A stretch of 64,000 nucleotides of DNA, from positions 19,049 to 83,048 of the forward strand of contig NZ_QXIY01000017.1 in the NCBI RefSeq assembly GCF_003570995.1, in the 5' to 3' direction. The notes below the pieces were generated by a model. It did not search any database and was not told where the DNA came from. It worked only from the letters and a program-made list of their open reading frames with translations. This document shows positions 42,298 through 45,411 of this stretch, one piece after another. The translations under genes were made by a program, and so were the position numbers. The DNA comes from Candidatus Cryosericum septentrionale. GTDB taxonomy: Bacteria > Caldisericota > Caldisericia > Cryosericales > Cryosericaceae. Each line of letters begins with the position of its first letter. Within the stretch, counting starts at the first letter, position 1.

Positions 42298-42902
42298 CCC
42301 TGGTGAAGGCGCTGCGAGTCTTCTGCAGCCAGACGTGCGAAAGCAGCTGTTGCGTCGAGCGTATGTCTATCGATCGGACGGGAATTCTGGCGCAGATATA
42401 CCAGCATCTGCTCAAGGGCACGCAGCATTGCGGTTTCGAGACTGCTGAACAGCAGAGAGCGGACTTCCTCGACGCCCGCGAAGTGGCGGCCCGGCTCACA
42501 GTAGTCGGCAAGGAAGACGATCATCGCCAGCCGGTCCATTTGAGGGGCACCGGTCGTATGCAGAGCAATTGCCTGTAGAATCTCAGGATCACCCACACCA
42601 AAGTCGCGTCGGGCGATCAGCGCCCCGACTGGGGCATGAAGGACTACCGGGGCGAAGGTCTCAGCCATCTCACGAACCAGAGGGTCATTGGTGTCCTTGA
42701 CTAACTCGAGCAGGAACGACTCGGGCTCATCCCTCGCGATGTCGTGCAGCAGAGAAGCGACGCTGGCCTTCTCCTCGGATACTCCCCAGAAACGGGCAAG
42801 TCTCACAGCCAGCGTCTCCACGCGGAGCATGTGCTTCAGTCGTTTCTTCGGAACACGCCCGGCGACGAGGTCGACGAGGCGAACTCTCTCCTGCGGTGTC
42901 AC
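42294..42902 (-). CDS. yqeK: HD-domain hydrolase, YqeK family
   Basis: 202 residues from the GTG at 42902, which overlaps the nadD stop (GTGA). HD motifs: KRLKHMLRVETLAVRLA, ASLLHDIARD, then ALHTTG and VFLADYCEPGR. YqeK proteins hydrolyse Ap4A symmetrically and are regularly found behind nadD. Its end carries the -35 of the tRNA promoter. The frame is open upstream but in nadD-overlapping, non-conserved sequence. Confidence 0.88.
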   Translation of the reverse strand: MTPQERVRLVDLVAGRVPKKRLKHMLRVETLAVRLARFWGVSEEKASVASLLHDIARDEPESFLLELVKDTNDPLVREMAETFAPVVLHAPVGALIARRDFGVGDPEILQAIALHTTGAPQMDRLAMIVFLADYCEPGRHFAGVEEVRSLLFSSLETAMLRALEQMLVYLRQNSRPIDRHTLDATAAFARLAAEDSQRLHQG

Positions 42903-43486
42903 TGACCTCTGTACAATCCGTGCTGTCCAATATACCCAGCGACGGACGGGGGTACCAGGCCCTCGACCGAGAGGCCCTGCCGCAACCGGTTGCGAATAAG
43001 GGTCGACGACAGGCTGTCGAACGGGTTGATGTCGAACAGAGCCCTGGCAGGGATTTCCGGGCTTCCTGAACGGTGCCGGCCGGCGCGCGGGACGAACCAT
43101 AGTTCGACCTGATCCAGGATGTCCTGGTATCTGTGCCACTGCGGGAACGAAAAGAGCTGGTCCTCCCCAAGAAGCAGCGCCGGCTTGTCCACACCCAGCG
43201 ATGAACGGAGACCTTCGAGCGTATCTACGAAGTAGGATGGCCGTGGTTCACAGCTCAATTCGAAGTCGGAGATGGACACATCAGGCACCCCTGCGAAGGC
43301 AAGCTGTAGCATTGCCACACGATCAGCGTCGGATGCGGAGAGGTGTTTGTCAAAGTTCGGATTGGGAAGGCCGGTGGGGATGAGAATGAGTGTAGAAGAT
43401 GTCATGAGGCGAAGAGCCTCATGGACGACAAAAACGTGACCTGCGTGGACAGGGTCGAACGCTCCCCCATACAGCACAGTCTTCAT
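42899..43486 (-). CDS. nadD: Nicotinate-nucleotide adenylyltransferase
   Basis: 195 residues. Nucleotidyltransferase signature GGAFDPVHAGHVFV (residues 7-20) and the C-terminal SSTLIRNRL motif. It converts nicotinate mononucleotide to deamido-NAD. It overlaps obgE and yqeK by 4 nt each, so the operon is translationally coupled. Confidence 0.93.
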   Translation of the reverse strand: MKTVLYGGAFDPVHAGHVFVVHEALRLMTSSTLILIPTGLPNPNFDKHLSASDADRVAMLQLAFAGVPDVSISDFELSCEPRPSYFVDTLEGLRSSLGVDKPALLLGEDQLFSFPQWHRYQDILDQVELWFVPRAGRHRSGSPEIPARALFDINPFDSLSSTLIRNRLRQGLSVEGLVPPSVAGYIGQHGLYRGQ

Positions 43487-44784
43487 CGCTTGGTGGTTGT
43501 CTCTTCCCCCAGAGTGAATACGCGGCCACCGATCATGACGCTCTGCCCGTCATGGGCTCCCTTCTTGCGGAGAGCCTTCTCGACGCCGATCTTGCGCATC
43601 CTCTGGTCCAGCAGTGTGGCCTGGAACGGCTTTTCGAAGTCGGTCGTGTGGACAATCCGGTCGAGATAGCGTCCTGACGCGGAGAGCATGCCGTCGGGAA
43701 GGCGGGAGATTCCGAATGTCTCATCGGACGGCTTCAGCTTGTAGACCCGCGTCACCTGTTCACGTGGAGGCACAGGTGCAGACTGCACGAGGGCCAGTCC
43801 ACGTTCGATGACGGCGTCAATGCCACCATTCTCCAGTGCGGAAATCATCAGAGGCTCGATACCTTGATGAACAAAACGGGTACGAATCCCTGTCCGCTTC
43901 TGCGCAGAAATCACATCGATCTTGTTGACGACGATAAATCGGGGCTTGCCTGCAAGCTGCTCACTGTATTGTTCCAGTTCGCGGTAGAGCAGGTGATACG
44001 CCTGAACCGGGTCGGGATCGGACGAACTGCCGTCAACCAGAAACAGCAGAACCCGGCTGCGTTCGATGTGGGCCAGGAACTTGTTGCCAAGCCCCCGACC
44101 GTCAGCGGCTCCTTCCACAAGCCCCGGGATATCCGCAAATGTGACGCGCTCACCGTCCGGTGAGAATGCTACGCCCAGGTTCGGGGACAACGTCGTGAAG
44201 GGATAGGCGGCAATCTTCGGGTGTGCTGCAGAAAGCTTGCTCAGCAGTGTGCTCTTGCCCGCGTTCGGAAAGCCGACCATGCCGACGTCGGCAAGGATCT
44301 TCAGGCGCAGCCTGATCCGACGCTCTTGCGCAGGGATGCCCTCTTCGGAGTATCGCGGGGCACGGTCAACGGACGTGGCAAAAGCTGCATTGCCTCTGCC
44401 ACCGCTTCCACCACGAGCTACAGTGACAGTCTCGCTCTCGTCGACCAGATCCGCCAGGACCTCGTCTGAGGCAATATCCGTCAGGACGGTGCCCAGCGGG
44501 AGATAGACGGTAACGTCCTGTCCGTCACTCCCGTGCTTGTTGCGTCCAGCGCCCGGCTCTCCAGCCTGGGCCTTGAACGTCCGCTTCTTTGCGAAGAACT
44601 GAAGGCTCGAGTATCGGCTGGTAGCTACAAAGATGACGTCTCCACCTCTGCCGCCATCACCGCCGTCCGGCCCGCCTTTCTCCACGTACTTCTCACGACG
44701 GAAGCTCATTGCTCCGTTTCCGCCGTGTCCCGAGGTAACTCGGACTATGACCTCATCGAGAATGCGGTCAGCTGAGTCTCTAAT
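43483..44784 (-). CDS. obgE: GTPase ObgE/CgtA, apparently starting at ATT
   Basis: 433 residues if begun at the ATT at 44784-44782. The first in-frame ATG (44709) falls inside the glycine-rich Obg fold and would remove 25 residues including DEVIVRV and GHGGNG, which match the conserved Obg N-terminus. Back to the in-frame stop there is no ATG, GTG, TTG or CTG, but the ATT has AGGGAG 7 nt upstream. The G domain has GFPNAGKST, the switch FTTLSPNLG, DIPGLVEGAADGRGLG and NKIDV; the C-terminal OCT domain ends the protein. Ribosome-assembly GTPase, in the usual place after rpmA. Confidence 0.88.
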   Translation of the reverse strand: MRDSADRILDEVIVRVTSGHGGNGAMSFRREKYVEKGGPDGGDGGRGGDVIFVATSRYSSLQFFAKKRTFKAQAGEPGAGRNKHGSDGQDVTVYLPLGTVLTDIASDEVLADLVDESETVTVARGGSGGRGNAAFATSVDRAPRYSEEGIPAQERRIRLRLKILADVGMVGFPNAGKSTLLSKLSAAHPKIAAYPFTTLSPNLGVAFSPDGERVTFADIPGLVEGAADGRGLGNKFLAHIERSRVLLFLVDGSSSDPDPVQAYHLLYRELEQYSEQLAGKPRFIVVNKIDVISAQKRTGIRTRFVHQGIEPLMISALENGGIDAVIERGLALVQSAPVPPREQVTRVYKLKPSDETFGISRLPDGMLSASGRYLDRIVHTTDFEKPFQATLLDQRMRKIGVEKALRKKGAHDGQSVMIGGRVFTLGEETTTKR

Positions 44785-44804
44785 GGAAACGCTCCCTATC
44801 GGTG

Positions 44805-45086
44805 CTAGTTCGCCTGCTCAGGAACAGGAAGCTCAGGGATAGGAAGCACGTGAACGCGCTTCACGGTCTTGAGCGACTCGAATTTCACTGTTCCGTCGAC
44901 AACGGCGAACAAGGTATAGTCTCGGCCCATCATGACGCCCTTGCCGGCTTTGAAGTGCTCGCCACGCTGACGCACGATGATATTGCCTGGCCGAACAGCT
45001 TGACCATCATACAGCTTGACGCCGAGGTACTGCGGGTTGCTGTCCCGCCCGTTACGTGACTTACCGCCTGCTTTCTTGTGTGCCAT
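44805..45086 (-). CDS. rpmA: 50S ribosomal protein L27
   Basis: 93 residues beginning directly with [16 protein letters not shown], without the cleaved N-terminal extension of many Firmicutes; consistently, no prp-type protease gene lies between it and rplU. The C-terminal [12 protein letters not shown] is a small extension. Starts 16 nt after rplU with GGGGGTG. Confidence 0.96.
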
Positions 45087-45102: not shown

Positions 45103-45411
45103 TTACCCGATCTCCGTGATCTTCACGTAGGTCGATGTCTGTCTGTGCCCTATGAGCTTCTTGTGCGTCGTCTTGTTCTTGTAGGTGAAGACACGGACCT
45201 TGCGGTCGCGCGTGGTACGAACGATCGTACCGCTCACCTTCGCGTCCAGGACGTAGGGTTTGCCGATTTGAGTGCCGGCGTCAGTGGTGACGACGAGGAC
45301 TTTGTCGAACACGATCGGCGTGCCGGGTTCGCTAGCGATTTTTTCCATCTTGACGGTCTCGCCGAGCTCGACCCGATACTGCCTTCCTGCTGCTTCAATA
45401 ACGGCGTACAT
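45103..45411 (-). CDS. rplU: 50S ribosomal protein L21
   Basis: 102 residues, ATG after TGGAGGTAG. Typical L21: MYAVIEAAGRQYRVELG at the start and THKKLIGHRQTSTYVKITEI at the end. First gene of rplU-rpmA-obgE-nadD-yqeK. Confidence 0.96.
   Translation of the reverse strand: MYAVIEAAGRQYRVELGETVKMEKIASEPGTPIVFDKVLVVTTDAGTQIGKPYVLDAKVSGTIVRTTRDRKVRVFTYKNKTTHKKLIGHRQTSTYVKITEIG

Follow-up and report, generated by a model that had tools for sequence, protein, structure and literature searches.

A probable ATT start codon for obg in Candidatus Cryosericum, and its possible restraint by initiation factor IF3

At which codon does translation of obg begin in Candidatus Cryosericum, and what would that codon mean for the supply of the protein? 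Obg is an essential ribosome-assembly protein. Its gene lies in a 64,000-nucleotide stretch of DNA, referred to here as the window, from the draft genome of a permafrost bacterium, Candidatus Cryosericum. The cluster rplU-rpmA-obg and a nadD-like gene all lie on the minus strand of the window. The first gene of the cluster is rplU (45103-45411), a reading frame whose product, L21, was read from the sequence, followed by rpmA (44805-45086), which encodes L27 (TIGR00062, above cut-off) and lies directly upstream of obg. The obg gene (43483-44784) encodes the GTPase Obg/CgtA, 433 residues long from an ATT to the last sense codon. The product of the nadD-like reading frame (42899-43486) was also read from the sequence. 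Its ATG overlaps the obg stop as ATGA (43483-43486), and the gene is probably translationally coupled to obg; because of this overlap, nadD output may also be limited if obg initiation is weak.

The protein belongs to the Obg/CgtA family, since profiles and solved structures identify the glycine-rich N-terminal Obg fold, the G domain, and the C-terminal extension (TIGR03595, 48 bits, cut-off 37.65). In the profile search it matches PRK12297 with 470 bits (cut-off 406) and TIGR02729 with 409 bits (cut-off 280), and the protein read from the ATT is a full-length Obg, in keeping with the normal length that a sequence-only reading of this DNA had claimed. The obg frame, opening at 44817, reads GCA GGC GAA CTA GCA CCG ATA GGG AGC GTT TCC ATT AGA GAC TCA GCT GAC CGC ATT CTC GAT GAG GTC. 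The rpmA stop, TAG (44807-44805), is 20 nt ahead of this ATT (44782-44784) and in a different frame from obg. The same reading had found no canonical in-frame start between the rpmA stop and the Obg N-terminus, and the reading frame in the window confirms it: none of the codons ATG, GTG, TTG, and CTG occurs from the last in-frame stop before obg down to the conserved ILDEVIVRVTSGHGGNG at the Obg N-terminus. The Shine-Dalgarno (SD) element that it had placed before the ATT, AGGGAG, is present at 44797-44792 with a 7-nt spacer; the usual SD of the genome is AGGAGG, with an aligned spacing of 4-8 nt. Not until codon 26, counted from the ATT, does the frame contain an ATG; it lies within GHGGNGAMSF, and solved Obg structures align with the window protein from query residues 4-10 on. 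The earlier argument that a start at this ATG would destroy the Obg fold is thus sound.

The region is held by ten genomes of the genus, which were independently assembled and are mostly drafts; they are related and do not count as independent samples. The start codon is ATT in eight of them and ATC in two (G011 and G006), and ATG, GTG, or TTG stands at this position in none of the ten. The conservation that the sequence-only reading had looked to for support therefore exists, and the ATG or GTG in relatives that would have counted against it is absent from all ten. The position of the SD is constant while its flanks vary (GGGAG, CGGAG, AAGGAG), with GGAG kept in nine of the ten and a weaker GGGGG in G006. 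In this most divergent genome of the genus, the first downstream in-frame ATG is replaced by ACA. The obg start sits 14-20 nt past the rpmA stop throughout Cryosericum. Among the eight complete copies of the gene, about 84% of the amino-acid-invariant codons vary synonymously, while codons 2-4 (AGA GAC TCA, 44773-44781) are invariant at the nucleotide level and codon 1 varies only between ATT and ATC. About 8% of random ATT, ATC, or ACG codons in the genome have an SD of at least 4 bases at 5-8 nt; the combination at obg is more than chance, recurring in all ten members of the genus with differing flanking bases. Taken together, the comparison strongly supports a start at ATT in Cryosericum obg, which we regard as very probable. 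The start region gave a weak consensus RNA fold with almost no covariation, which was not used.

The sister family f3, probably Caldisericaceae, shows a different non-canonical codon. An invariant ACG occupies the obg start in 13 of 18 f3 genomes, spread over eight genera, and is placed four or three codons ahead of the conserved F/L-I/V/L-D of Obg. It is preceded by a GGAG-type SD inside the end of rpmA, and its offset from the rpmA stop always lies between -8 and +7 nt. Two of these genomes (L022 and L029) have an in-frame TTG farther upstream, inside rpmA, which the other ACG genomes do not. In seven f3 genomes (L014, L017, L024, L025, L028, L030, and L031) rpmA and obg share a frame, with a single stop and one codon before the ACG, and readthrough there would yield an L27-Obg fusion. 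The remaining five of the 18 genomes, all of genus g12 (L011, L012, L015, L018, and L019), have GTG in a 14-nt overlap with rpmA, and an SD could not be recognised before it. Since g12 has a GTG without an obvious SD, the non-canonical start is not indispensable in the Cryosericum/f3 clade. The other Caldisericota families (f2 and f4-f7) start obg with ATG, GTG, or TTG, and each of the 55 obg loci examined as controls in other phyla carries one of these codons near the expected place, a further sign that the Cryosericum pattern is more than chance. Because the Obg tree, in which many rows are fragments, joins f1 and f3 as sisters (support 93/89), the simplest history would have the non-canonical start arise once, change codon later, and revert to GTG in g12.

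The genome-wide comparison covered 1,238 genes called in 1.53 Mb of G000, 390 of which were paired with an orthologue from the 0.83 Mb of G011 that was covered. Genes were retained when both genomes shared a near-cognate codon with an SD ahead of any shared canonical start. Nineteen raw candidates passed among the 390 pairs, and on inspection obg and infC appear to be the only convincing conserved AT[TC] starts with an SD. The others were rejected as internal codons or because an ordinary start lies a short way downstream, and widespread use of ATT starts was also rejected, as just these two genes stand out. A codon-usage scan of the single genome, too noisy on its own, placed obg 163rd, a low rank that reflects the rare codons with which the gene opens. 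The Cryosericum infC gene, encoding IF3, starts with ATC, preceded by GGAGGTGTGGA and following TGGAGGTGTGGA, and in the f3 genomes inspected it starts with ATT, both codons agreeing with the start known from IF3 autocontrol. The beginning of infC in G000 (L123; ATC AAT AGG GAT TCA GAT) resembles that of obg (ATT AGA GAC TCA GCT GAC, 44761-44784), as TAGGGATTCAG and TAGAGACTCAG show, a likeness that may be due to chance.

An initiator tRNA with the normal CAU anticodon and with GGG/CCC in its anticodon stem is encoded, and the 42 tRNAs in 1.53 Mb of G000 include no variant initiator that reads AUU. The acceptor end of the initiator (second tRNA of record 21 among the G000 contigs scanned, complement 133-209, ARAGORN sequence read by eye) has an apparent U1.G72 and no C1xA72 mismatch. 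With this normal CAU initiator, AUU, AUC, and ACG should serve as near-cognate, IF3-sensitive starts.

In bacteria, IF3 makes initiation complexes unstable at codons other than AUG, GUG, and UUG, and for this reason synthesis of Obg would probably be low and responsive to IF3. We consider it fairly probable that the ordinary initiator tRNA starts obg at a near-cognate codon and that IF3 holds its synthesis back, as it does for infC. In the proposed mechanism, the normal CAU initiator would read the AUU of obg (AUC in two species), helped by the SD that follows the rpmA stop, to give an Obg of normal length beginning fMet-Arg-Asp-Ser. Synthesis would climb when there is little IF3 per 30S subunit, as for the AUC-start infC, and a restraint that relaxes in this manner seems somewhat more probable than its absence. 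In E. coli and Streptomyces, IF3 represses or discriminates against near-cognate starts (PMC5472188, PMC2268962), with sigR (GTC) and infC (ATT/ATC) among the genes repressed (PMC5472188). E. coli ObgE acts on the 50S subunit as an anti-association factor, and the study describing this likened it to IF3 (PMC4028186); since IF3 on the 30S subunit and ObgE on the 50S subunit both oppose subunit association, a link between them is plausible. The IF3 sensitivity of near-cognate starts and the kinship of ObgE to IF3 in function are the reasons for which restraint by IF3 is favoured. Reconstructed AUG starts have very rarely switched to AUU (1 of 61,358; PMC5622118). The rare weak starts of obg and infC suggest that the cell ties the production of Obg and IF3 together. 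More tentatively, the two genes could form a regulon defined by start codon in Cryosericum and f3, in which IF3 and Obg rise together whenever IF3 falls short of 30S and selection maintains the non-canonical state, not one codon, through AUU, AUC, and ACG.

Sequence does not separate control by IF3 from an obg start that is merely weak and coupled, and a weak, unregulated start is the main rival. Here ATT, ATC, or ACG would be the true start, used at a low constant rate offset by coupling to rpmA translation, with no regulatory role for IF3. The closeness of the start to the rpmA stop in both groups fits such coupling, as does the overlapping GTG without an SD in g12. However, IF3 discriminates against such codons wherever this has been tested (E. 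coli, Streptomyces; PMC5472188, PMC2268962), and the infC gene of the same genome, with its ATC start, points to such discrimination in Cryosericum as well, which leaves the unregulated start rather unlikely. Initiation at another codon is far less probable. The frame offers an ATA 12 nt upstream of the window ATT, a GTT, a second ATT seven codons downstream, and the downstream ATG. The upstream ATA and GTT were dropped as not conserved, the ATA being AAA in G012 and ACA in G009. No conserved SD precedes the second ATT, which is ATA in G006, and the ATG, lost in that genome, lies within the Obg fold. Synthesis of Obg within a joint rpmA-obg product, by frameshifting or by reading through the stop codon, would accord with the overlap of the obg frame with the end of rpmA and with the seven same-frame f3 genomes, but the frame relation of the two genes varies between families and genera, the spacing and SD are typical of a start site, and L27 would be placed on Obg. 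No slippery heptamer was seen by eye at the rpmA-obg junction, and we hold this route to be highly improbable. The window comes from a draft genome, yet a sequencing or assembly error at 44782-44784 is refuted by the same codon class in ten independently assembled genomes.

If restraint of Obg by IF3 is correct, IF3-dependent control would extend beyond infC, pcnB, and sigR to a widely conserved ribosome-assembly GTPase, and the anti-association factors of the 30S and 50S sides would be linked. Selection may have kept ACG as a genuine start codon in bacteria. Automatic annotation that admits no start other than ATG, GTG, or TTG must cut obg short in these genomes or place it wrongly. A full-text literature search, with most subscription journals outside its scope, found no paper on an Obg with a non-canonical start codon.

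To our knowledge, very few bacterial genes retain a non-canonical start, and obg is a new member of this small class. It has the sequence traits of the infC and sigR type: no in-frame ATG, GTG, or TTG at the functional N-terminus, a normally spaced SD (weaker in G006), and a codon conserved across the ten genus genomes and the 13 ACG genomes of the sister family. Like infC, which has an AUU or AUC start under IF3 autocontrol (ATC in this genome), obg combines a near-cognate AT[TC] start with an SD and is conserved across species. Unlike infC, obg uses ACG in the sister lineage, and its control would act in trans instead of autogenously, because its product is not IF3 but a 50S assembly and anti-association GTPase. 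The pcnB gene of E. coli, whose AUU start limits output, is a non-infC gene like obg with an unrelated product. Streptomyces sigR (GTC, IF3-repressed; PMC5472188) is likewise a gene other than that of IF3 with a conserved non-canonical start; it encodes a stress sigma factor whose repression by IF3 was shown by experiment, whereas obg is known here from sequence comparison. The sigR codon has turned over from GTC to GTT in two species (PMC5472188), much as the codon at the start of obg appears to have turned over in Cryosericum and its sister family.
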